Shown in pieces: positions 7,310 to 54,602 of a stretch of 54,888 nt of DNA. Origin of the DNA: a virus; the IMG/VR virus record IMGVR_UViG_3300008110_000120, positions 1-54,888 of that record. The stretch is one strand, 5' to 3'. The number at the start of each line of letters is the position of its first letter. Position 1 is the first letter of the stretch. The notes below the pieces were generated by a model. That model searched no databases. It was not told where the DNA came from and saw only the letters and a list, made by a program, of their open reading frames with translations. Both the position numbers and the translations under genes were made by a program.

Positions 7310-7600
7310 TTATTTTGTGTTTGGATTAATTGAAACACCAGGATCTCCAACCTTAAATCCTTTTCCAGCACCAGATCTAATAGTAGTTCCAGAAAGAGGT
7401 TTTACTACATCCATTGCTCCACTAATATTATCGGAAGCAGTATCTTTTGGATCATTTGCAGTTGCATTCATGCCAATTTGTCTCATCCTTGATGCAGAAC
7501 CCATTGATCTTGCGTGTGCCGCTTGAACTGCCGGTGCTTTATAATCTATGTAATTAGATGGAAGGGTAGATTGTTCCAAAAACTGTCGAAACGTCTTCAT
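7310..7600 (-). CDS. small protein with capsid-targeting-like N terminus
   Basis: A 96-residue protein starting MKTFRQFLEQSTLPSNYIDY. The first ten residues resemble the T4 capsid-targeting sequence MKTYQEFIAE that leads internal proteins into the prohead, where gp21 cuts it off. F-L-E at 7-9 loosely fits the gp21 rule hydrophobic-x-Glu. The rest is polar and low in complexity (DYKAP, Met-rich, then Gly-rich). The same start occurs at 8635-8811 and 20349-20669. A packaged internal protein is inferred. A terminator follows directly. Confidence 0.8.
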   Translation of the reverse strand: MKTFRQFLEQSTLPSNYIDYKAPAVQAAHARSMGSASRMRQIGMNATANDPKDTASDNISGAMDVVKPLSGTTIRSGAGKGFKVGDPGVSINPNTK

Positions 7601-8634: not shown

Positions 8635-8811
8635 CTAAAGTAATTTCTGGAATTCTTGCAATTTAACAGGTGGTTTAGATTTAGTTCCTGGACCCATGGG
8701 TCTTGAAGAATTTAAATTTTTTTGAGTTGCGGGATCCATTGCAAATGTTTGTTTTGCATTTACAGGTGCCCTATATTCAGCTTCCGAAATAAATTCTTGA
8801 AACGTCTTCAT
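8635..8811 (-). CDS. 58-residue peptide with capsid-targeting-like N terminus
   Basis: Reads MKTFQEFISEAEYRAPVNAK, then a polar tail ending KLQEFQKLL. The start nearly matches the T4 capsid-targeting sequence MKTYQEFIAE-A, and I-S-E before Ala10 fits the gp21 cleavage rule. This is the best of three such N termini in the window. Its last nine codons read, in another frame, the remnant upstream coding of the gp3-position gene, as if this cassette replaced that gene's 5' end. It follows the gene 23 terminator; TCTAAATA at 8823-8830 is a possible weak late box. Confidence 0.75.
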   Translation of the reverse strand: MKTFQEFISEAEYRAPVNAKQTFAMDPATQKNLNSSRPMGPGTKSKPPVKLQEFQKLL

Positions 8812-8877: not shown

Positions 8878-10326
8878 TCACATGAGGTTGAGAACCTTAA
8901 CTCTTCTGTAGTAACGGTTAGCGTTAACTCTGAGGCGTCCAAGACCCTGGTCGGTTCCTTCTGCGAATGGGTTAGCAACAAGACCATAACGGGTCTTAAA
9001 GCCAATCTTGGGCTGGAAGGTGTTCTCACCAACGGCACGAACCATTTGGAGGGGAACATAAGGGCAATAGAAGAGACCAGCGTCATATGCGCTAGAACCC
9101 TTATAACCAACAACGTAGTACTGACCACCAGCAGAACCAACGTTTGAACCGCCCGAATATGGGTCGATATAAACGCGATACTTACCTTGGAGAACACCAG
9201 CGAAGGTGTTACCAGTGTCATCAACGTTAAGGTTAGCGTTGAGTGCAGGGGTGTAATCAAGAACACCTGCCATGGTGAGTGCCGAAGCAACGTCAGCAGA
9301 GCAGAGGATCATGTTGCCCTTCCCTCTACGAGTTCTTTGTGCGATTGCGTTAGCATCGCGCTCGATTTGGAAGATAAGACCCTTGAACTTCTCAACTGAC
9401 CAACGTCCGTTGGAGTCAACATCTAGGTCGAACTGACCAGCGGTAGCAGTGTTGTGTTGAGCACCTGATTCTGCAACCTTATAGATGGTTCTGATGACTT
9501 CGCGGTTGATTTCAGCAAGAATCTCGCTAGAAAGAATGTTAGCAAGTTCTGCTTCTGCATTTAAACCGTGAATTGCCTTCAGGTCTTGAGCAAGTTCGAG
9601 GCTGTATTCTGCTTTCAGAGCACGGCTCTTGGCAGTAACAGTGACCTTCTCGATTGAGAACGCCATTTGGTTGAACTCGTTTCCACCAGTTCCAAGACCT
9701 TCTGCATCTTCAGTGTCCATACCACGTCCAGTGGTATAAGCAGATTGAGTTACATTGCTGTCTGGGCTGAGGAGACCGGGATTGGTTCCACCTTGAGCAG
9801 CAGTTGTACCGAAACCAACAGCGCCGCCAGTTTCACTACCCTCATTTTGGGTATATCCAGAACCAAGACCGCCGGCTGCGCGGGCAGATCCTTGTGCTGA
9901 ATATGCAGTATCTGGCTCGTTGAAGAATGCTTCATCCGAACTGTTGCTTTGTGCTCCATAACGTGAGCGCATTGCAAAGATGAGTCCGGTAGGACCATTC
10001 ATTGGTTGAACGCCAGCGAGGTCATATGCGACCAGGTTAGGCATTGAACGGCGGATGAGGCTGATTAGAACAGGGTCGAAACCTGAAACAGGACCAGCAT
10101 CAGCTGCGTTTGCACTGAAACCTGCGGTTGCACCGCTGGATCCAGTTGACATGTTAGGAACAGCTTCGTTGAGGAAAGCACGCTCCTCACGAAGTTCTCT
10201 CTCTTGGTTTTCTAGCAGGATAGCGGTGACAGCTCTACGATGTGAATCTCTGATTGGATCCATTCCATCGTAATCGAGGATCGGTGCCCACTTCTCCTGC
10301 AATTGTTCTGCATTGAACATTTGCAT
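8878..10326 (-). CDS. gp23: major capsid protein gp23
   Basis: A 482-residue HK97-fold capsid protein (T4 521). The N-terminal delta domain is followed by a likely gp21 cleavage site L52-N53-E54/A55, giving a mature chain starting AVPNMSTGSSG. Later hallmarks are FDPVLISLIRRSMPNL, SVEKFKGLIFQIERDAN and RVYIDPYSGG. Its GC content is clearly higher than the neighbouring genes, as expected for the most abundant protein. The leader has GAGG eight bases before ATG 10326; a second in-frame ATG follows two codons later. A strong terminator follows. Confidence 0.98.
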   Translation of the reverse strand: MQMFNAEQLQEKWAPILDYDGMDPIRDSHRRAVTAILLENQERELREERAFLNEAVPNMSTGSSGATAGFSANAADAGPVSGFDPVLISLIRRSMPNLVAYDLAGVQPMNGPTGLIFAMRSRYGAQSNSSDEAFFNEPDTAYSAQGSARAAGGLGSGYTQNEGSETGGAVGFGTTAAQGGTNPGLLSPDSNVTQSAYTTGRGMDTEDAEGLGTGGNEFNQMAFSIEKVTVTAKSRALKAEYSLELAQDLKAIHGLNAEAELANILSSEILAEINREVIRTIYKVAESGAQHNTATAGQFDLDVDSNGRWSVEKFKGLIFQIERDANAIAQRTRRGKGNMILCSADVASALTMAGVLDYTPALNANLNVDDTGNTFAGVLQGKYRVYIDPYSGGSNVGSAGGQYYVVGYKGSSAYDAGLFYCPYVPLQMVRAVGENTFQPKIGFKTRYGLVANPFAEGTDQGLGRLRVNANRYYRRVKVLNLM

Positions 10327-10375: not shown

Positions 10376-11554
10376 TCACTTTTTAGCGACTCTACTGAGA
10401 ACTGTAAGATAACTTTCCATTCTTCCACCAACTTGTGGTTGTTCGGAATAATTAGCTTCTTCAGCAATGTTTTCAGTAACAGGTCTTTGAGTACTAGTCG
10501 ATTTTGATGAGAAATAAGAATCTCTCAATGTAACTAGCTTCTCACGATAGTTTTCTTCACTATCAAACTCAACATTTTCAGCAAGAGAAGCGAGTTTATC
10601 TTTCTGTGAAAGTGCTAAACCTTCAGTAACTTCAGTAAAAATTACATCAGCAACTGACTCTGCTAATCTTCTATTAAGAGCAACATTCTTTTCGATTTGC
10701 TCGTTGAGTTTTCCTTCCATTTCATCAAGTTTATCTACCATACTCTCGATAACATCATATTTTTCTTCAGGGATTGTTACATAATGATCTTCAAAAAGAT
10801 TCTTCATTCCTGAGAGGAATGATTCAGTCATTTCGGTTCTGAGACCGTGCTCAATTGCAAGAGTGTTTTCATGCATCCACTCGTCAGCAACATATTCTAA
10901 ATATGCATCTACTCTATCGGTGAGTTCTTCTTTGATTGTAGAAATTTCTTCTACAAGAGCTTGCTCATATTCAGATTGGAATCTCTCTTCCAACTGTTCT
11001 TTGATTGAATAAATTTTTGTTCTAACTGCAGTCTCAAAGATTATTCTTGCCTTTTCTTGGAACTCTTCTGAAAGTTCTTCACCAGCAAGAAGAGCATTAA
11101 CATCTTCTTCGATGTCAAAATCTTCATCTTCCTCAACTTCTTCCTTCACCTCTTCATCTTCGTCTTCGTCTTCTTTAGACTTCTTCTTCTTAGGTGACGA
11201 AGAATTGGAATTCTCATCCTCTTCATCCTCTTCATCTGCTTCCACAATGAGATCTTCATCATCTAGATCTTCTTCCTCCTTTACGGCATCTTTATTAAGA
11301 TGTGGCATTGGATCTGCTGACTTAGCACCTTTGTTGACAACATTTTTTACTTGTGACAACGTTGCACTAGGCTCTTTTAATTTTGCCGAGTCATTATCTG
11401 AACGATAATTTTCTGGAGTAGGACCACCGAGATCTTCCCAATTGCCAGTTTGACCATCAGGAATACCTGTGGTTAATTTTGGCATTGGTTCTGCCGGCTT
11501 AGCTCCTTTGGTTACTACGTTTTCCATTTCTTGTAAATTTCTACCAACGGACAT
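10376..11554 (-). CDS. gp22: prohead scaffolding core protein gp22
   Basis: A 392-residue, strongly acidic protein (T4 269), helical in its C-terminal two thirds (NEQIEKNVALNRRLAESVAD). The N-terminal extension holds a duplicated unit, NVVTKGAKPAEPMPKL and NVVNKGAKSADPMPHL, then a long Asp/Glu run with a Ser/Lys patch. gp22 forms the prohead core around which gp23 assembles and is degraded by gp21. A TATAAATA box lies 30 bases upstream of the ATG. Identity rests on position between 21 and 23 plus composition. Confidence 0.92.
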   Translation of the reverse strand: MSVGRNLQEMENVVTKGAKPAEPMPKLTTGIPDGQTGNWEDLGGPTPENYRSDNDSAKLKEPSATLSQVKNVVNKGAKSADPMPHLNKDAVKEEEDLDDEDLIVEADEEDEEDENSNSSSPKKKKSKEDEDEDEEVKEEVEEDEDFDIEEDVNALLAGEELSEEFQEKARIIFETAVRTKIYSIKEQLEERFQSEYEQALVEEISTIKEELTDRVDAYLEYVADEWMHENTLAIEHGLRTEMTESFLSGMKNLFEDHYVTIPEEKYDVIESMVDKLDEMEGKLNEQIEKNVALNRRLAESVADVIFTEVTEGLALSQKDKLASLAENVEFDSEENYREKLVTLRDSYFSSKSTSTQRPVTENIAEEANYSEQPQVGGRMESYLTVLSRVAKK

Positions 11555-11593: not shown

Positions 11594-12244
11594 TTAAAGA
11601 TTTGCTAAGAAATCTTGGAACAGTTGAATTTTATGCTCTTGTAAAGTACTTTCATCTACAAGAGTATTAATTCTGCGTCTTGTTTGCTCAGCAAGTCTTT
11701 CACGAAGAATCCCTCCTTCCCAAACCCACTCCTTACCTTCCATAATTCCCTGAACAAATGCATCGGGGGCAGAAGGATCGGCAACAATATCAGCAGCGGT
11801 TGCAAGCATAAAATCTTCACCGACAACTTTATGACCTTCATTGGTCATCTTCAATGAACCAACACCACGAGAAGAAACTCCAAGGCAAACACCCTCTTTA
11901 ATCAAAGACATTGCAATCTTTCCCATTGGGGTCTCAAGAAGTTGTGCCTTACCGATAAAATTATTACCTTCTCTAGCAAGTTCACAAATTTTATGTGAAA
12001 CGCGATCAAGATTTACAGTTGGACCATCTGGATGTCCAAGTTCACCGAGAGCGCGACCTTTTTGAACAAAATTTTCATTATAACGATTTACTTCTCTTTC
12101 CATAATAGAAAGAGGATACATTCTACCGTTACGATTAACCTGCTCTGCTTGTAAGAAAATGCCTTTAATATAGCATTTTTGCGAAGAACCTTTTCCTTCG
12201 GTAATAAATTCTACTTTTGATACTTCTTCTGTGATGAGTTTCAT
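11594..12244 (-). CDS. gp21: prohead core protease gp21
   Basis: A 216-residue serine protease of the herpesvirus-assemblin type (T4 212). Catalytic-site stretches are GELGHPDG with His71 and GVSSRGVG with the nucleophile at Ser124 or Ser125. It matures the prohead by cutting gp23, core and internal proteins after hydrophobic-x-Glu. The clear candidate sites here are L52-N-E in gp23 and I-S-E in the capsid-targeting-like proteins. The stop is followed at once by the gene 22 promoter. Confidence 0.96.
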   Translation of the reverse strand: MKLITEEVSKVEFITEGKGSSQKCYIKGIFLQAEQVNRNGRMYPLSIMEREVNRYNENFVQKGRALGELGHPDGPTVNLDRVSHKICELAREGNNFIGKAQLLETPMGKIAMSLIKEGVCLGVSSRGVGSLKMTNEGHKVVGEDFMLATAADIVADPSAPDAFVQGIMEGKEWVWEGGILRERLAEQTRRRINTLVDESTLQEHKIQLFQDFLANL

Positions 12245-17089: not shown

Positions 17090-18739
17090 TTACATATAAT
17101 CCCACATGTAAGATTTATCACCATATTCATCGGTATACCATCTATCACCATCTTCATCAACAAAACTTGACATTTCATCAATTCCATCTGCAATAAAACC
17201 AAAAGGTGCCATATCTTGTTCTATTTGATTTTTTTGCTCTTCATATATCCTCTTGCGGACATCATTGTCTGTCATTTCTTTAAAATAATCTTGTGCAACT
17301 AACCAAGAAAAAATAACAAGACACATTGCCAGATCATCATTACATCCTTCTTCTGCCTCAAATGAGTTATGTTTTTGTATAAAGGTTGTCAGTTCACTAA
17401 TAATTTCATAGTCATTGACTATTAATTTATCATCTTCTATAAGCGTCCTTAAGTTTGAACATCCTAACTTTTTAACAGATGCGGTCATTCGAACACCTAG
17501 TTGAGATTTTTTACCACTAAATCCAGATCCAACTATTTGTCCTGCGCGTCCTCTCATAGAACACATTAGTATATTGTCGTATTCTAAATCAAAGTGTAAA
17601 ATATTTGCTACTTGATCTCCAATATCATTTATTTCTGCCAAAACATATGAATTATTATATCCACGAGCAACATCATTTATAATACTTGGAAATAGCATTG
17701 GTTTAATTTCATTATTCCTATACTTTGCTACTGTTCTGTATGGAAACTCTGTAATATCAAAAACAATAAAAGTTGAATAATCACCACCAATACCTCTGGC
17801 AACGTCAACTGTCATTAAGTAATTGTGTTCTTCCTTTGGATTTTCATATACATCCAATCCTTTGTTTCTTTTAATTGGATCATCATATACTAGAGTTTTT
17901 AACTTTGCTGGACTAATAAGTGTATCAACGGACCCTAAAAATTCACATTCAAATTCAACTTTGAACTGTTGTTCGGAAGTGTTAGCAATGGTCTGCGCTT
18001 TCCACTTTTCATCTCTTCCCGGAACTTCTGCCCAATGAACATCCGTTGGAACATACTCATTCTTTTTTCTTTCGGCATCATGCCACATGCGATAAAAATG
18101 ATTCATACCACGGGGGGTAGAAACAATAATTACCTTGGTACTTTGTCCTGATGAAATGGTAGGATATACAGAAGCAAAAAAGTCATCAGCGATATGATTT
18201 GGAATGAACGCAAACTCATCCAAGAATATGATGTTATATGATCCTCCACGCACCGCAGACGCCGATGTAGATGCTGCCATGATCTTTGACCCATTCTCTA
18301 GCTCCAAGCTCCCCCTGTTCCACTGTAGAACCCCTTGCTGCATCCACCTAGGGAGATTTTCATATGCAAGTTGTAGTCTCTGAAGAAGATCTCTTGCCGT
18401 AGATGCTTTGTTTGCAAGAATCGCAATATTTACATTATCATTAAAAAGTGCATAGTGTAAAAGGTAAGATACGCAGGTAGTAGATTTGCCTGTCTGACGA
18501 GGCATCTTGCAAATGTTGAATCTATTTTGATGGAAATTTTTAATTAATTTTTCTTGAAACTTATATAAAGAAAATGGAACCAATCCATGATCCAGAGAAA
18601 CGATTTTAATGTAGTTTTTTGCAAAATATACCGGATCCTCTTTACATTTTAAAAATTCAATGATTTGATCTTCAGTAAATTGGATTTGTGTATTTGCTTT
18701 TTTTAAATTGGGATTACCAAGATATACGCTATCAGACAT
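17090..18739 (-). CDS. gp17: large terminase subunit gp17
   Basis: A 549-residue packaging motor (T4 610). Walker A is PRQTGKST at 80-87 and Walker B is NIIFLDEFAF. The C-terminal RNase-H-like nuclease has acidic residues in TVDVARGIGGDYSTFIVFD, LAEINDIGD and CNDDLAMCLVIFSW. It pumps DNA into the prohead through gp20 and makes the headful cut. GTTAAATA at 18760-18767 is a possible weak late box. Confidence 0.98.
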   Translation of the reverse strand: MSDSVYLGNPNLKKANTQIQFTEDQIIEFLKCKEDPVYFAKNYIKIVSLDHGLVPFSLYKFQEKLIKNFHQNRFNICKMPRQTGKSTTCVSYLLHYALFNDNVNIAILANKASTARDLLQRLQLAYENLPRWMQQGVLQWNRGSLELENGSKIMAASTSASAVRGGSYNIIFLDEFAFIPNHIADDFFASVYPTISSGQSTKVIIVSTPRGMNHFYRMWHDAERKKNEYVPTDVHWAEVPGRDEKWKAQTIANTSEQQFKVEFECEFLGSVDTLISPAKLKTLVYDDPIKRNKGLDVYENPKEEHNYLMTVDVARGIGGDYSTFIVFDITEFPYRTVAKYRNNEIKPMLFPSIINDVARGYNNSYVLAEINDIGDQVANILHFDLEYDNILMCSMRGRAGQIVGSGFSGKKSQLGVRMTASVKKLGCSNLRTLIEDDKLIVNDYEIISELTTFIQKHNSFEAEEGCNDDLAMCLVIFSWLVAQDYFKEMTDNDVRKRIYEEQKNQIEQDMAPFGFIADGIDEMSSFVDEDGDRWYTDEYGDKSYMWDYM

Positions 18740-18768: not shown

Positions 18769-20346
18769 TTAATCAACTTCCCAAATAAGAGAAGTATTAG
18801 TTGCAGTAACGTTAGATGCTTTTATTGCTAGAGAAATATTACTTCCAGGAGAAACTACAATTCTGTAACTACTCAAATCAATATTTAATGAACCACTACT
18901 AGGTATTGCATAAGATAAAATAGGAGTATTAGTAGTTTCACTTATAGTTCCATTTTCTTCTGAAACCAGTGCAATTGAATTTCCTCCTGGTTGAGTTCTA
19001 AAAATATGAGAACCTGTTGCTAAAGGAGCATCTAGAAATACAAAGACTTCAGCAGGTGCTTGCCCACTATTAAATGTCCCACTCAACCCTTTCATAATTA
19101 TTTCTCTTGAATTAAGTACTCCATTATTTGTAGTTGGGTTTTGAACAGTAATTAAATGATTTACTACGTTTGCACTTAATCCTGCAGTACTTCTAAATGT
19201 GGAACTTGGATATACATTTTGAACAATTTTACCCTCAACACCCATCATTAGGGATGCTCCACAAACAGCAGCAGTTGAAGCAATACCAACACCACTTAAA
19301 TTTGCGGCAGCATATCCAATTTTAAATGATGGATTATCTACCCAAGGAGTGGTATGTTTATTGCTATAATGGGCATGATGAAAGAAAATCATATCTCCAT
19401 TTATTGGATTTTCTATAGCATATCTTTGCTCACCTGCACCCAACCAGCGATAATTGATTTGGAATACATTTAATTTTGTTGTATCTAAAGTAACTCCAGA
19501 TGGATTTGATGTCCCACCAACACCAGTCAAATTATCAAGGTTCCAATCTTCCTGATATGTCCATTCTTCTGTAGCAACTTTACCAGATTGAATGGTTGTA
19601 AATGTTCCTACTGCTCCTGTTGTTCCTGGTATAAATTGAAAATTACCTGTCTGCGGACCAACTGAATTTGCTAAAAATATAATTGTATTATCTCTTTGGT
19701 CTGGAATGTGAGTTGCATATGAAGTACTGAATCCCAATTTTGCTGCTGTTGCCGATGTATCTGCAGAATCATTTACAAGAGATACACTATAAGAAGTTCC
19801 ATTTAAAATAACTGTTGAAATTCCGGAAGAACTTGCTGCAGTTGTAATAGTAAGTTTTCTAATTTCTGCTTTTGTTCCATACTGACGAAGAATACCAAAT
19901 TTTCCATTAGTATTAAATCCAACTTGTAGTGCAGATTCTTGACTAAAAAAACCTGCTCGTAAAGTTACTCCTACAGTAGGATTGATAAAGTGTGCAGTAA
20001 ATCTAGCAACTCCACCTTGTCCCGGTCTGTACCTTAAAAATCTCTTTGAACGAACCACACTATATCCATATGCACTTGTTCCAGTTTCTGCAACAAATAA
20101 ACTATTTCTTGTTGTTGCTATTCCACTGGTAAATGAATATGTTTGAAAACTGTTTGTTGGAAGACCATAGATTGGGTCCAACTGAACTACGGGAGTGAGT
20201 TCAGAAACTGCATATTCACCAAAAGCACCTCTACCAGTAGCACCTTCGCTTATAATATTTCCATACTGGTCAGCCTGGATATAAACCTCATGCAGGGTTC
20301 TTTCCTGATTCAAATAATCTTGTTGATTCTTATTCCATTGTGCCAT
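18769..20346 (-). CDS. virion structural protein, 525 residues
   Basis: Begins MAQWNKNQQDYLNQERTLHE. It is a beta-rich, Ser/Thr/Gly-rich protein with FEYAVSELTPVVQLDPIYGL-like opening segments, SKRFLRYRPGQGGVARFTAH and YHFHH-like aromatic patches (MIFFHHAHYSNKHTTPWVDN). The pattern suits a fibre or head-surface protein. It lies between genes 16 and 17, where T4 has nothing comparable. Conserved in cyanomyoviruses as an unnamed structural protein as far as I recall. No enzyme motif is visible. Confidence 0.88.
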   Translation of the reverse strand: MAQWNKNQQDYLNQERTLHEVYIQADQYGNIISEGATGRGAFGEYAVSELTPVVQLDPIYGLPTNSFQTYSFTSGIATTRNSLFVAETGTSAYGYSVVRSKRFLRYRPGQGGVARFTAHFINPTVGVTLRAGFFSQESALQVGFNTNGKFGILRQYGTKAEIRKLTITTAASSSGISTVILNGTSYSVSLVNDSADTSATAAKLGFSTSYATHIPDQRDNTIIFLANSVGPQTGNFQFIPGTTGAVGTFTTIQSGKVATEEWTYQEDWNLDNLTGVGGTSNPSGVTLDTTKLNVFQINYRWLGAGEQRYAIENPINGDMIFFHHAHYSNKHTTPWVDNPSFKIGYAAANLSGVGIASTAAVCGASLMMGVEGKIVQNVYPSSTFRSTAGLSANVVNHLITVQNPTTNNGVLNSREIIMKGLSGTFNSGQAPAEVFVFLDAPLATGSHIFRTQPGGNSIALVSEENGTISETTNTPILSYAIPSSGSLNIDLSSYRIVVSPGSNISLAIKASNVTATNTSLIWEVD

Positions 20347-20348
20347 AA

Positions 20349-20669
20349 TTAATCAGTCCAAGTTAATCTTTCTGGTTGATATCTTTGTGAGTTTTTGATT
20401 TTTAAAGTGTTTGTGTTGTAAGAAGTTGGATAGAGTTGATGAACTATTGCTCCAGGATATTCGTCCTGAAGTTGTTCAGCGAGAGCATTCTTATCCATCA
20501 TTTTACCCTCAACTTCTAATCTATACATCTTACCTTCCCATACCACATCGGCAATGAAAGATTCTCCAACTGGTTCTGATTGATTATCTGAACCATTAAT
20601 ATAAAGATTGCCGTTAAAATCGCCTGCAATATTAACGCTTTCTGAAATAAACTGATTAAAGGATTTCAT
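20349..20669 (-). CDS. small protein with capsid-targeting-like N terminus
   Basis: A 106-residue protein beginning MKSFNQFISESVNIAGDFNG. The first eleven residues follow the T4 internal-protein leader pattern (MK-[ST]-[FY]-x-x-F-I-x-E), with I-S-E before Ser11 as a possible gp21 cut. The body is beta-rich (NLYINGSDNQ, FIADVVWEGKMYRLEVEGK). The C-terminal part is basic and polar. It sits two bases from the genes on both sides. A packaged head protein is inferred. Confidence 0.8.
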   Translation of the reverse strand: MKSFNQFISESVNIAGDFNGNLYINGSDNQSEPVGESFIADVVWEGKMYRLEVEGKMMDKNALAEQLQDEYPGAIVHQLYPTSYNTNTLKIKNSQRYQPERLTWTD

Positions 20670-20670
20670 T

Positions 20671-21954
20671 TTAGTTACAGTTCCAGCGACGGAGAGCTTT
20701 GTTGATTCTTGAATCTGGATCTCTTGCAGTTTCTGCAGATGTAAGTTTGTCTTTCATCCCAGACATACGACTACAAAAGTTTTTACGACGATTTGCTCTC
20801 TTACCACTTGGATTCTTTTCAGTTACTGCAGTTTGTAATTTAGAACCAGGATTTTCGCGGCGATATGCTTTAACTGCAGCAGGACTTAGACCATCAGTTT
20901 TATCTTTGCGATTTACTGACTGCCAATCTTCGGCAAATTCTTCCCTCCAGTTTGAATATAATTTTTTCTCACCAAGAAGTTTACTGCCAATTCCTTTACT
21001 TGGTTTTAAAGATTCTGGTTTAATAATATCAACAAATTCTGCATAATGATTACCATGTGCATCCTCAATCGAAATTGATTCTGGGACACAGTTTGGAACT
21101 TCTTTATCACCTTTCATTTTTGTTGGGGGATTTCCTAGTTTTTTCCCACTCCAACACTTACTTGCGCCAACATTTTTACGTGCCTTCTCAATTCCCTCTT
21201 CTATATCAGTTTCCTCAATATTTAAAGTTTTTGGGTATCCTTTTTCGCCTGGTTTTGCCGGTCTTTCTCCACGCTTTCTTTTGGCATGAATGTTATGCCA
21301 GAGACCTTTTTCTTCTTCATCAATGGCATTTGATTCTGAAACTTTATTATCACTTGACAAATATTCAGCAGCTGTTGTGATAAAGTCAGCAGCTCTTGTT
21401 ATTTTTGATTGCACCCAAGCTGGAAGTTGCTGATCTGGTTTTTTAATAATTTCTCTTAATATTTCAATAGATTTTTCGATGGCATCTAATTCAATTTGAG
21501 CCATGTATCCTTCTTCATCTTTTATTTTTCCTGAAGCGATTTCTTTGTGATCTTCAGGAAGTAATTCCTCGTTTGCCGGATGAACTGTTGCAATATTGTA
21601 CTTCATTTGATTTAATGATAAAGGCTCTCTAGCGTACCTTTCCCACATTGTAGGTCCATATGAACAATCTTCTTGGGTTTCAAATTTTCTGCATAACCTA
21701 CAAAATTTGGTTTCACCAATTTGTTCAGTTTTTGGTGTTTTTTCTACTTTTTTTAATTTTGTATAATAATCTGGAAATTCATCAATATGTTGAAGTGCTG
21801 TAATTTTTGCAGAATTTGGATCTGTAGTATGCTCCCCTTCTACCTTTGTTCCCATTCGGACTTGCTTTTCAATAACTTTCAGGGAAACTTTATGTTTTTT
21901 GGCAAGTTCTTCTGGAGATTTATAAGATTTTACAGGGCCTTTGGGATCTCTCAT
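20671..21954 (-). CDS. multidomain hypothetical protein (DUF5661-like N terminus)
   Basis: A 427-residue protein that looks like several small phage domains joined. Residues 1-70 (YKSPEELAKKHKVSLKVIEK, HIDEFPDYYTKL) resemble DUF5661. A possible zinc cluster FCRLCRKFETQEDC follows near residue 85. A basic region (GLWHNIHAKRKRGERPAKPG) comes next, then ARKNVGASKCWSGKKLG. The C-terminal domain has LSPAAVKAYRRENPGSKLQT, NFCSRMSGMKDKL and DPDSRINKALRRWNC, as in small proteins of many phages. It lies beside small terminase gene 16. Function unknown; a head or DNA-associated role is only a guess. Confidence 0.88.
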   Translation of the reverse strand: MRDPKGPVKSYKSPEELAKKHKVSLKVIEKQVRMGTKVEGEHTTDPNSAKITALQHIDEFPDYYTKLKKVEKTPKTEQIGETKFCRLCRKFETQEDCSYGPTMWERYAREPLSLNQMKYNIATVHPANEELLPEDHKEIASGKIKDEEGYMAQIELDAIEKSIEILREIIKKPDQQLPAWVQSKITRAADFITTAAEYLSSDNKVSESNAIDEEEKGLWHNIHAKRKRGERPAKPGEKGYPKTLNIEETDIEEGIEKARKNVGASKCWSGKKLGNPPTKMKGDKEVPNCVPESISIEDAHGNHYAEFVDIIKPESLKPSKGIGSKLLGEKKLYSNWREEFAEDWQSVNRKDKTDGLSPAAVKAYRRENPGSKLQTAVTEKNPSGKRANRRKNFCSRMSGMKDKLTSAETARDPDSRINKALRRWNCN

Positions 21955-21968
21955 CTACCTATTTTAAT

Positions 21969-22388
21969 TTATTCTTTATTATTTAGAAAACCTTGTTTAA
22001 GTAATTTTGATAACTCGGAAGTTGATCCCACAAAAACCGCATTATTTGTAACGTTATTGGTTGTTTTTACAGACTGGTCTTCAACGTCTTTAACTTTTTT
22101 TTGCAGGTCTATAAGTTTATCAGTGACGTCTCCAACACTTTTTATAAGTTGACCGGCAACTTCATATGCTCTTGGAGATTCGCTTTCACCGGCAAGTTCC
22201 ATAATTCCATTAATTGCCTCTTGCCCCTTTTCTATCAGTGAGTATAAATTTGCTCTAGTATACTCATAATCTTTTTTTATATCTTGTTTTGGTTCTTGTA
22301 TTATGATACTTTCCTCACTTTTTTCTACTTTCACTATTTTACTTTCGATATTTAAAGCACTGTTAATTGATTCATAATTGTCTTTCAT
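21969..22388 (-). CDS. gp16: small terminase subunit gp16
   Basis: A 139-residue helical protein (T4 164). Coiled-coil-like central segments (NLYSLIEKGQEAINGIMELA, KSVGDVTDKLIDLQKKVKDV) are followed by a C-terminal LSKLLKQGF motif. gp16 forms a ring that recognises phage DNA and regulates gp17. The identification combines sequence style with position between gene 15 and the terminase region. Confidence 0.9.
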   Translation of the reverse strand: MKDNYESINSALNIESKIVKVEKSEESIIIQEPKQDIKKDYEYTRANLYSLIEKGQEAINGIMELAGESESPRAYEVAGQLIKSVGDVTDKLIDLQKKVKDVEDQSVKTTNNVTNNAVFVGSTSELSKLLKQGFLNNKE

Positions 22389-52603: not shown

Positions 52604-52777
52604 TCACCCCCGCACTTCGTCAGAATGAACCTCAGCGAACTGTGCCGCCCATACGGTGGCAGGGATGCCCACGGGGTAAACCATAGCGGGATTCTCATTC
52701 CAGGCGCTGCCGTCGTTACGGTAGGAGACCCACACGGTCTGGCGGTCCTTGAGGCGGGTGGCAGGGGAGAGGCGCAT
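52604..52777 (-). CDS. GC-rich small early-type protein, 57 residues
   Basis: Starts MRLSPATRLKDRQTVWVSYR. ATG 52777 is preferred because the in-frame upstream codons are part of the promoter repeat (52782-52815). Further sequence is NDGSAWNENPAMVYPVGIPA and TVWAAQFAEVHSDEVRG, a small soluble protein with Trp residues and an acidic C terminus. The extended -10 box lies about 30 bases before the ATG and no Shine-Dalgarno is seen. Unrecognised; small early proteins of this kind often bind host factors, which is inference. Confidence 0.65.
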   Translation of the reverse strand: MRLSPATRLKDRQTVWVSYRNDGSAWNENPAMVYPVGIPATVWAAQFAEVHSDEVRG

Positions 52778-52781
52778 CGGA

Positions 52782-52815
52782 GGCGGTTGGTTGAACTGGG
52801 TTAATTGTAGCACGT
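52782..52815 (-). promoter_or_regulatory. extended -10 promoter within a 34-base exact repeat (copy 1)
   Basis: Contains minus strand TGCTACAAT (52804-52812), an extended -10 element, about 27 bases before the ATG of the 57-residue gene. The whole 34 bases recur unchanged at 53019-53052. A GGGGG/CCCCC stem-loop lies just upstream (about 52822-52840). Confidence 0.6.
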
Positions 52816-52831
52816 AACGGGGCAGGGGGGG

Positions 52832-53014
52832 TCAATCCCCCATCGCTTCCTTCAATGCCTCAAACGCTGCCATCCAATGGGCGGCGTCGGCGTGTTTGCC
52901 AGCAAGGCGCTCATCCACGGCAAAGCACAGCACGGCGGTTCGGATGGTGCCCCAAGTCCCGTCGGGCAGGGTGAGGGTGGTAAGGTTCTCAGCGTTCCAG
53001 GGGGAGGCGGTCAT
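52832..53014 (-). CDS. GC-rich small early-type protein, 60 residues
   Basis: Starts MTASPWNAENLTTLTLPDGT at ATG 53014, chosen because the codons before it are promoter sequence. Beta-rich first half (TWGTIRTAVLCFAVDERLAG) and helical second half (HADAAHWMAAFEALKEAMGD). GC content is far above that of the structural genes. A GGGGGATTGACCCCC stem-loop spans its stop. It has its own extended -10 promoter. Not recognised. Confidence 0.65.
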   Translation of the reverse strand: MTASPWNAENLTTLTLPDGTWGTIRTAVLCFAVDERLAGKHADAAHWMAAFEALKEAMGD

Positions 53015-53018
53015 GAGA

Positions 53019-53052
53019 GGCGGTTGGTTGAACTGGGTTAATTGTAGCACGT
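53019..53052 (-). promoter_or_regulatory. extended -10 promoter within a 34-base exact repeat (copy 2)
   Basis: Identical to 52782-52815, with TGCTACAAT at 53041-53049. It precedes the 60-residue gene. Confidence 0.6.
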
Positions 53053-53064
53053 CGGGGGGCGGGG

Positions 53065-53229
53065 TCAGACCATATGGTCCGCCAGACCCCAGTTAATCAC
53101 AATCAGGTCGGGGTTCAGGCGAGCGCAGGTGTCCCATGCCTGCTGGGCGGTTTCTGCCATGTAGGACAGGGTGACCTGCCGACGCTGGCGAGTGTGGAAA
53201 CCGGTGAACAGGAAACTGGATTCGGTCAT
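53065..53229 (-). CDS. GC-rich small early-type protein, 54 residues
   Basis: ATG 53229 gives MTESSFLFTGFHTRQRRQVT, then LSYMAETAQQAWDTCARLNP and a hydrophobic end DLIVINWGLADHMV. The stretch AQQAWDTCARL recalls DADRAWDLCLDL in the upstream neighbour (53274-53435), so they may be diverged copies. ACCATATGGT, a 10-base palindrome, lies in the last codons. It has its own TGCTACAAT box (53253-53261). Unrecognised function. Confidence 0.62.
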   Translation of the reverse strand: MTESSFLFTGFHTRQRRQVTLSYMAETAQQAWDTCARLNPDLIVINWGLADHMV

Positions 53230-53252
53230 GGGGGGGGGTGTCGGTTGAGAGT

Positions 53253-53261
53253 ATTGTAGCA
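53253..53261 (-). promoter_or_regulatory. extended -10 promoter TGCTACAAT
   Basis: The same nine bases as in the two 34-base repeats, 24 bases before ATG 53229; the surrounding sequence has diverged. Confidence 0.55.
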
Positions 53262-53273
53262 CGTAACGGGGGG

Positions 53274-53435
53274 TCAGCGCCCGTCAGTGTAGTCTCCGAT
53301 GATGACCCCGTTGCAGCGGACCTGAGCGTACCCGTACTCTTCAGACAGATCCAGGCAGAGGTCCCATGCACGGTCGGCATCGGTGGTAGTGTTCTCCCAG
53401 GGAGCGGCGGGGCAGATCACGTCAAGGCGGGTCAT
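53274..53435 (-). CDS. GC-rich small early-type protein, 53 residues
   Basis: ATG 53435 to TGA 53274. Reads MTRLDVICPAAPWENTTTDA, DRAWDLCLDLSEEYGYAQVR and CNGVIIGDYTDGR. An acidic protein with three cysteines. The AWDxC helix resembles that of the downstream neighbour. It follows a stem-loop/TATACT cassette (53436-53523) and no Shine-Dalgarno is visible. Function unknown. Confidence 0.62.
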   Translation of the reverse strand: MTRLDVICPAAPWENTTTDADRAWDLCLDLSEEYGYAQVRCNGVIIGDYTDGR

Positions 53436-53523
53436 TTGGTTCGTTTGCTTTGGTTCCCTTAGTATAGGGGGTCAGAACCCCCCCAAGCGGAAACCCTGTG
53501 CCAGTGGTTTGACTGGCACAGGG
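53436..53523 (-). promoter_or_regulatory. stem-loop plus TATACT promoter cassette (PeSL-like)
   Basis: It has a 12-base perfect stem (53494-53505 with 53512-53523, loop 6), a second GGGGGT/ACCCCC stem (about 53467-53482), then TATACT at 53461-53466 and a leader ending CAAACGAACCAAATG. The leader end resembles that at the left edge of the window (CAAACGAACTCAAATG). Confidence 0.65.
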
Positions 53524-53540
53524 CAGAGGGCAGTTATCTA

Positions 53541-53753
53541 TTAGAATTGAATTTCACTCAGAGTAGGAGCAGCAGCGGAATCAGAACCGCCACTGTCAGA
53601 AACCCCATCAGCAATTGAATCAAGAATTTGGAGAATTTGCTCACCATTGGAACCTTGGCGAAGGAGTGAGAGAATGACATCGCGGGACATTTGAGTATAC
53701 ATTAGAGAGTGTAATTTGGTGGGTTTAAAGTCATCACCAGGACTCCAATTCAT
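53541..53753 (-). CDS. hypothetical small protein, 70 residues
   Basis: Starts MNWSPGDDFKPTKLHSLMYT. The middle part SRDVILSLLRQGSNGEQILQ, followed by ILDSIADG, is a helical pair, and the tail is Ser/Gly/Asp/Ala-rich and disordered. Composition is less GC-extreme than the block at 52.5-53.5 kb. The start overlaps the preceding gene by 4 bases (ATGA). A 12-base terminator-like stem follows its stop. Conserved in cyanophages to my recollection; function unknown. Confidence 0.8.
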   Translation of the reverse strand: MNWSPGDDFKPTKLHSLMYTQMSRDVILSLLRQGSNGEQILQILDSIADGVSDSGGSDSAAAPTLSEIQF

Positions 53754-53911
53754 CGACCCATTGGCATATGCAGCAGGCGGAAGTCATCCTCTATCCATGA
53801 GAAATAAACCCAGATTTTGTCAACGAATTTTGTAGTCTTCTTCAGGTAATATTTGTCGGAGGGTGAGAGTTTGCGGTAAACTTTGCCGTTGCTGATGTGA
53901 ATCGTTTTCAT
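53750..53911 (-). CDS. small basic protein, 53 residues
   Basis: ATG 53911 to TGA 53750. Reads MKTIHISNGKVYRKLSPSDK, YYLKKTTKFVDKIWVYFSWI and EDDFRLLHMPMGR. Basic N-terminal half and aromatic centre. It is coupled to the next gene by ATGA. The gap of 26 bases upstream holds no clear promoter, so it is probably read from the 54198 unit. Not recognised. Confidence 0.68.
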   Translation of the reverse strand: MKTIHISNGKVYRKLSPSDKYYLKKTTKFVDKIWVYFSWIEDDFRLLHMPMGR

Positions 53912-53937
53912 TGGAGTTTGTGATGAGTGAGTTAGAT

Positions 53938-54198
53938 TCAGAAGTCGAAAACGTCGCCGTTGATTTCTGCGCGATTGACTTTAGGGTCGTTCCACTTCAC
54001 ACCGTCAGGGGTTTCTTTGGTGCCGAATTCATAGAACATTTCCAGCAGTTCTTCATAGCAGCAGATGTCATTTTGATCAATCAATTCTTGAATGCCTTCA
54101 TCATTCTGAATCCACAGAACCACGTTCCAGGTTTCATAATTCGTCCAACCGTTGTAGGTTGTATCGGTGAGGCAAGTCTGGTAGGTTGCGGTTGCCAT
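53938..54198 (-). CDS. NGWTNYETWNV-family small protein, 86 residues
   Basis: ATG 54198 is preferred; codons upstream of it are the promoter cassette. The protein starts MATATYQTCLTDTTYNGWTN. The motif NGWTNYETWNVVLWIQNDEG is the signature of a small family widespread in phages and some bacteria (a DUF; I recall DUF7249). The rest is acidic and helical (YEELLEMFYEFG). Function unknown. It has its own TATAAT cassette and no Shine-Dalgarno. Confidence 0.82.
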   Translation of the reverse strand: MATATYQTCLTDTTYNGWTNYETWNVVLWIQNDEGIQELIDQNDICCYEELLEMFYEFGTKETPDGVKWNDPKVNRAEINGDVFDF

Positions 54199-54283
54199 TT
54201 GGTTGGGTTGCTTGGTATGAATCAATTATAAGGGGTGGAAGTGCCGTTCTGGGGGAACCTTGTGCCAGTTCCCCAAGTGGCAA
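54199..54283 (-). promoter_or_regulatory. stem-loop plus TATAAT promoter cassette (PeSL-like)
   Basis: Minus strand TGGCACAAGG lies in the loop of a GGGGAAC/GTTCCCC stem (54252-54258 with 54268-54274). TATAAT follows at 54225-54230, then a leader ATTCATACCAAGCAACCCAA. The leader matches that at 54521-54552 at nearly every base. Confidence 0.65.
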
Positions 54284-54520
54284 TTAGCAACCCATCCGCT
54301 GGCAAAGTGCCTCCAAATTCTTCTCAACTTGATCGCTGAAAAGGGATTCTTGAATGACCTCCCGAATCTTCAGCAGAGCATAATCATATCCTTCATCATT
54401 CGTCAATTGATTCTGATACTTTTCAGCAGTGGAGTAGCAGTCAAACAGACGCATAGAATCAAAGTTTTCGCCTTCATAATCCCAACCACCAATCACGGCA
54501 TAAACTTTGGAGATTTGCAT
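54284..54520 (-). CDS. hypothetical small protein, 78 residues
   Basis: ATG 54520 gives MQISKVYAVIGGWDYEGENF, then DSMRLFDCYSTAEKYQNQLT. The upstream in-frame codons are leader sequence. The pattern KVYAVIGGWDYEGE-(R)LFDCYSTAEKY resembles small phage and plasmid proteins with a beta-hairpin and helix that are annotated only as hypothetical. The C-terminal half is helical. It is transcribed from its own cassette. Confidence 0.8.
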   Translation of the reverse strand: MQISKVYAVIGGWDYEGENFDSMRLFDCYSTAEKYQNQLTNDEGYDYALLKIREVIQESLFSDQVEKNLEALCQRMGC

Positions 54521-54602
54521 TTGCTTGGGTTGCGTGGTATGAATCAATTATAGGGGGTGGGAGGGGGCATCCGGTGCCCCCCTTGTGCCACTTGTCAGAC
54601 TG
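54521..54602 (-). promoter_or_regulatory. stem-loop plus TATAAT promoter cassette (PeSL-like)
   Basis: TGGCACAAGG, then a GGGGGCA/TGCCCCC stem-loop (about 54563-54581), then TATAAT at 54547-54552, then a leader ATTCATACCACGCAACCCAA before the ATG. Confidence 0.65.

Follow-up and report, generated by a model that had tools for sequence, protein, structure and literature searches.

A putative T4-type capsid targeting sequence on a small cyanophage protein encoded between the terminase genes

Introduction

Between the two terminase genes of a 54,888-nucleotide viral sequence (IMG/VR record IMGVR_UViG_3300008110_000120, the whole of which we refer to as the window) lies a gene for a 106-aa protein that begins MKSFNQFISE. 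The question raised by this locus is whether these ten residues are a signal that sorts the protein into the phage head, and if so what becomes of the protein afterwards. The obvious precedent is the capsid targeting sequence of the T4 internal proteins IPI, IPII and IPIII (Mullaney and Black 1996, summarised in PMC9026906 and PMC3012670). As reviewed in PMC9026906, ten N-terminal residues of IPIII are sufficient for head incorporation, mutations show that residues 4 and 7 set targeting and residues 8 and 10 set processing, and aspartate at position 10 stops cutting but not targeting. The DarB/P1 capsid targeting sequence (PMC9024508) is likewise an N-terminal signal that loads a protein into the phage head, the P1 cargo being a defence protein, although it differs in its length (>9 and <30 residues) and in having no consensus common to the Dar proteins. 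In the literature that we searched, capsid targeting is tied to cyanophages nowhere beyond one T4 review.

The gene and its setting

The original prediction placed the gene inside the terminase region, and it is indeed located between the genes for the two terminase subunits:

17090-18739 (-), terminase large subunit gp17, from sequence and synteny
18769-20346 (-), downstream gene, virion structural protein (phrog_1645; S-SZBM1 has a virion protein, gene _190, at the corresponding position)
20349-20669 (-), 106-aa tag-bearing gene, PHROG 1742; ATG start, ORF ends exact, begins MKSFNQFISESVNIAGDFNG...
20640-20669 (-), ten-residue capsid-targeting-like tag MKSFNQFISE, followed by S11; predicted gp21-type cleavage after E10
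20671-21954 (-), upstream gene, DUF5661 + DUF6321 protein, without the tag in the window
21969-22388 (-), terminase small subunit gp16, from synteny

That 20349-20669 is a real protein-coding gene is beyond doubt, because a profile search matches its product to PHROG 1742, a family of unknown function (E 4.6e-39, residues 1-104 on 1-105 of 108), and because changes in the first ten codons of 92 relatives are mostly synonymous. The product opens with MKSFNQFISESVNIAG, an N terminus common to 85 relatives, and has zero Pfam matches. Relatives turn up in several hundred viral contigs and in 139 phage records, every one of which is named as a cyanophage. The gene starts two bases past the stop of the DUF5661/DUF6321 gene and itself stops just ahead of the virion structural protein gene. 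Its gp16-gp17 setting is retained in S-CAM9, Syn33, S-SCSM1 and S-SZBM1; S-SM1 lacks the gene at this place, and the PHROG 1742 gene is therefore accessory. The gp16-gp17 interval has been described as a hot-spot of Synechococcus-phage-enriched genes (PMC3037559).

Conservation of the tag and its match to T4

The I-S-E that had been pointed out ahead of residue 11 is present as I8-S9-E10, and forms part of a strongly constrained N terminus. M1, K2, S3, F7 and E10 are invariant in 92/92 distinct PHROG 1742 genes, in all of which position 4 is F or Y and position 8 is I, L or M, while positions 5 and 6 are variable. The same positions hold in more distant isolates, at 48-66% identity. Comparison with T4 IPIII gives agreement position by position: the targeting determinants (aromatic residues at 4 and 7) and the processing determinants (hydrophobic 8 and E10, the gp21 rule) are both found in every one of the 92 genes. 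Homologues packaged without this N terminus, which had been named as the case that would speak against a targeting role, did not appear. Among 60 PHROG 1742 records, evenly sampled from the 139 and checked for orthologues lacking the tag, there is no tagless orthologue; every whole-protein match starts at residue 1, and the two matches that start elsewhere are weak ones to the body domain only. From its sequence the PHROG 1742 protein appears best described as bearing a T4-type capsid targeting sequence, and this description is well supported.

A tag of the T4 type is expected to occur alongside genes for a gp21-family protease and a core or scaffold protein, and the window encodes both, together with a major capsid protein that carries the corresponding maturation site:

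8878-10326 (-), major capsid protein gp23 with FLNE/A, equivalent of the T4 FLTE65/A66 maturation site
10376-11554 (-), gp22-type prohead scaffold/core protein, presumed docking partner (phrog_237, E 7e-109)
11594-12244 (-), gp21-type prohead protease (Peptidase_S77), presumed processing enzyme (E 3.7e-39; phrog_207)

For T4 gp23 itself, the 456-residue mature chain as against the 521-residue precursor is consistent with the FLTE65/A66 site.

The body of the protein

The AlphaFold2 model of the 106-aa protein has a mean pLDDT of 53, rising to ~72 over residues 37-81, which form a strand-strand-helix-strand arrangement; outside these residues it is poor, and a helix at residues 4-10 is predicted with low confidence. 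The model is poor and its alignment shallow because a wider search gave mostly the same close relatives. The core may be set out as one further feature:

20424-20567 (-), body core, residues 35-82, predicted beta-beta-alpha-beta domain (AlphaFold2), which recurs in neighbouring virion proteins of relatives

By sequence, the core recurs in S-CAM9_088, in S-SCSM1_29 (labelled virion protein) and in the DUF5661-type proteins of contigs L103 and L017. A weak sequence match is also seen in S-CREM2 gp137, a member of that phage's virion list. For the S-CAM9 and S-SCSM1 proteins, a Foldseek comparison with predicted viral protein structures points the same way. The body had been thought beta-rich and otherwise unrelated to other proteins. 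Beta-rich is half right, as the core includes a helix and is flanked by low-confidence ends, and the recurrence of the core in neighbouring virion-associated proteins does not fit the second half of that description.

A PDB profile search with the 106-aa protein returned chance matches only (best E 0.014, a beta-propeller). Among solved structures the top match of the core is T7 Gp2 (E 0.22; Z 5.8, 2.3 angstrom over 49 residues), a match made on a model with mean pLDDT 53 and with a Z below 8, so that it may reflect only the common strand-strand-helix-strand arrangement; matches come readily to small folds of this type. T7 Gp2 is an inhibitor of host RNA polymerase and lacks the tag, unlike the PHROG 1742 protein. 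Sequence homology between the two was considered and rejected (hhalign probability 0.2%, over nine columns outside the core). The modelled likeness of the core to the Gp2 fold is a weak lead.

The tag on unrelated proteins

When the tag is removed, tagged proteins split into >10 unrelated groups, forming separate BLAST clusters with no similarity between groups. The groups include PHROG 1742, NMN adenylyltransferase (NMNAT), SAM-lyase-like, HiPIP-like, kinase, DUF5661 and DUF6321 proteins, and several small peptides, some of them near gp23, are also tagged. The SAM-lyase-like family, whose Pfam match is marginal (27.5 bits vs a cut-off of 28), comprises L121:1501-2058, L180, L177, L188 and S-CREM2 gp6, with tags such as MKTFQEFMVE and MKDFDSFLEE; these are candidate injected anti-restriction proteins, judging by sequence. 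The HiPIP-like protein (L108:1501-1701, 67 aa, MKSYQEFIAE) matches the high-potential iron-sulfur protein family of Pfam at 24.2 bits (cut-off 22). A further tagged protein, L119:1813-2460 (216 aa), looks like an ADP-ribosyltransferase by eye; no profile supports this and we do not claim it.

The DUF5661 proteins are instructive as to how the tag is carried. In the IMG/VR homologue L103, MKPFSQFISEAT directly precedes DPKGPIKKYMSPEE, and the window homologue (20671-21954) starts MRDPKGPVKSYKSPEE. The tag thus seems to behave as a detachable module, since in L103 it stands directly before a domain that the untagged window homologue also has.

Tagged proteins in virions

NMNAT is tagged in 46/46 viral-contig relatives with an intact start, and NMNAT/cytidylyltransferase proteins with the tag or a shorter variant include L100, L125-L172, S-SM1_190, S-SCSM1_91, S-SZBM1_140 and S-CREM2 gp154. 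The N termini read MKKFSAFLNE in S-SM1, MKNFSSFLTE in S-CREM2 and, as a one-residue-shorter variant, MRFRQFIIEA in S-SZBM1. The protein has been reported in virions of S-SM1 (T4-GC190), S-SCSM1, S-SZBM1 and S-CREM2, a presence that the tag could explain.

Other tagged proteins of S-CREM2 are also in its virion list, namely SAM hydrolase gp6 (MKDFDSFLEE), gp13 (MKDLHSFLTE) and kinase gp14 (VKRFDAFLTE), as is gp136, with the near variant MQTFSMFFSE. All of the strict-tag genes of this phage (4/4) encode virion proteins, and when only its non-structural genes are considered the enrichment of tagged genes in virions has P = 4e-4. Over the three genomes S-CREM2, S-SCSM1 and S-SZBM1, 5/8 annotated genes with the strict tag are virion-detected (P = 0.008), or 7/10 (P = 5e-4) once two near variants are added, in a test that covers only 8 genes, in which the virion list of S-CREM2 was known before its N termini were inspected and S-SCSM1 detection was inferred from GenBank labels. 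The three strict-tag genes that go undetected are two PHROG 1742 homologues and the S-SZBM1 DUF6321 protein.

In the available text of PMC9602691, PMC9146016 and PMC10665884, cyanophage NMNAT, SAM hydrolase and APH-like kinase are virion-associated enzymes detected by mass spectrometry, and no packaging signal is named for them; they are larger than the PHROG 1742 protein, have the same tag and belong to the same family, Kyanoviridae. PMC9602691 and PMC10665884 allow two origins for the NMNAT, SAM hydrolase and kinases reported in virions, which may be cargo for injection or contaminants left by purification.

Cargo or assembly factor?

The PHROG 1742 homologue of S-SZBM1, _191, is absent from that phage's proteome table, although its mature form should yield several tryptic peptides, and the S-SCSM1 homologue is annotated hypothetical while both its neighbours are labelled virion protein. 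The protein may be scarce in the particle, may be poorly expressed in the laboratory, or may exit at maturation like T4 gp68. The last of these leads to a different account of the tag, in which it docks the protein on the prohead core, but the protein serves assembly or packaging, is broken down or has left by the time the head matures, and is not injected cargo. The two virion proteomes in which PHROG 1742 goes unreported speak for such a factor, as do a gene that lies between the terminase genes and adjoins virion structural protein genes, and the core domain in neighbouring virion-associated S-SCSM1_29 and, weakly, S-CREM2 gp137. There is also a precedent in T4 gp68, which belongs to the core yet is listed at zero copies for the mature head in Table 1 of PMC9026906. 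However, an accessory gene, missing at this place from S-SM1, argues against an essential assembly role, and two shotgun proteomes could miss a few copies per head. We regard an assembly factor as unlikely, though it deserves the most serious attention of the alternatives to injected cargo.

Codons, chance and further occurrences of the tag

The shared N terminus might instead serve a purpose outside the head, such as the initiation of translation or an unrelated contact with a membrane or partner; it is after all N-terminal, and K2 is always encoded by AAA within PHROG 1742. Against this, AAG is used in other tagged genes, and the serine, phenylalanine and leucine/isoleucine codons vary freely, so that selection acts on the protein. 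The conserved positions are moreover exactly those important in T4, and tagged proteins are enriched in virions. A non-head purpose is very improbable. A crude look for a conserved leader ahead of the ATG at the DNA level revealed none.

The frequency of the tag was assessed with a back-translated pattern (M K x F/Y x x F/Y hydrophobic x E). It occurs at 2 places in the window (20640-20669 and 8782-8811) as against 0.04 expected from shuffles, and at least 2 matches arise in 1/100 window shuffles. With residue composition taken into account, the probability that at least two of ~56 genes carry the tag is ~1e-7, a figure that is post hoc because the tag was defined from T4 and the present finding. 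The test on 16 cyanophage sequences, with 43 matches (confined to one strand in each sequence) to one for the reversed control, is stronger than this within-window probability. If position 10 is opened to any codon with A in second place, coding matches are still nearly all G-A. Scans of T7 and T7-like P-SSP7 gave zero matches. That the tag is functionless, the product of chance or of simple descent through copied gene starts, is the least probable account: copied 5' ends may spread tags, and descent of the tag itself is likely, but 2 vs 0.04 matches in the window and 43 vs 1 in the control, bodies without BLAST similarity between groups, and an E10 kept despite divergence all speak against it.

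T4 has three matches, ipII, ipIII and the unnamed 61.1. The gp61.1 product (54 aa; NC_000866 18966-19130) begins MKTFKEFIKEDM, which fits the tag, and is possibly an unrecognised head-targeted protein.

The original prediction counted the PHROG 1742 protein as the third of three tagged small proteins in the window. The other two are:

8635-8811 (-), second tagged protein, 58 aa, adjoins gp23, starts MKTFQEFISEAEYR...
7310-7600 (-), near variant MKTFRQFLEQS, 96 aa; F4, F7 and L8 kept, E at 9 and Q at 10

Only the proteins with matches at 20640-20669 and 8782-8811 obey the rule; the one at 7310-7600 keeps the targeting residues but breaks it. In phage searches the 58-aa protein beside gp23 found no real homologue and the 7310-7600 protein found zero homologues. 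Variant tags with E at 9 (FLEQ, FMEK, FMEQ) occur on small proteins at 7310-7600 in the window and in L283 and L284, and the L283 protein is homologous by eye to the normally tagged L187 protein.

Discussion

Because of what is known of T4 IPIII, whose critical positions coincide with those conserved here, together with the non-homologous bodies and the over-representation of tagged proteins in virions, we agree with the original prediction that the shared N terminus points to a sorting signal and not to common descent of whole proteins. It is likely that MKSFNQFISE is a T4-type sequence acting in both capsid targeting and cleavage. Taken separately, and on sequence grounds, it is very probably a working capsid targeting sequence, and cleavage after E10 may be proposed with only slightly less assurance. 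Whether the protein is then retained in the head and injected is about evenly balanced.

A plausible course of events, in which docking, cleavage, retention and injection are all inferred, is as follows. The protein would be made late, together with its neighbours, and F4 and F7 of an N-terminal helix would dock it onto the gp22-containing prohead core. A cut made after E10 by the gp21-type protease would then release a mature form of 96 residues into the head; most likely a few copies would lie among the DNA and pass with it into the cell. PHROG 1742 would be an accessory host-interaction protein with a role comparable to that of the T4 internal proteins.

The likeness to the T4 internal proteins lies in the tag, ten N-terminal residues that include K2, aromatic side chains at positions 4 and 7, a hydrophobic one at 8 and E10, with a small residue next. 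It extends to a small protein, to an accessory gene, and to a genome that also encodes a gp21-type protease and a gp22-type core. The bodies are non-homologous, however, and the T4 proteins are described as basic whereas the mature PHROG 1742 protein is acidic by sequence count. The T4 internal proteins are also present at ~360 copies per head, whereas the PHROG 1742 protein is known here from genes and is not yet virion-detected.

More generally, we think it fairly probable that cyanophages, both marine and freshwater T4-like, load a changing injected set (NMNAT, SAM lyase, kinase, HiPIP-like, PHROG 1742 and others) by means of one general T4-type tag. It is this broader pattern, of one tag on many virion enzymes of cyanophages, that merits follow-up. 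The ten residues would offer a mechanism for, and a simple genome-wide predictor of, cyanophage head-borne proteins, and would list candidates, PHROG 1742 included, for proteins that take over the cyanobacterial host early or counter its defences. A combined proposal, in which this cargo set is general and PHROG 1742 in addition has the Gp2 fold, is injected and binds the RNA polymerase of the cyanobacterium within minutes of the start of infection, is quite improbable; RNA polymerase as its target is only a structural lead from the predicted model.

Further observations

S-CREM2 gp12 (L276:7704-10313 (-)), which is virion-detected and annotated Cas9, has a tag-like LRFASFMAEA 16 residues past its annotated start, and the leucine codon that opens this sequence is CTG. 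At 52604-54547 (-) in the window are consecutive short ORFs with near-identical starts (MLQLTQFNQPPP..., MLQYSQPTPPP..., MIHTTQPKQM...), a resemblance that suggests a repeated leader or promoter element.
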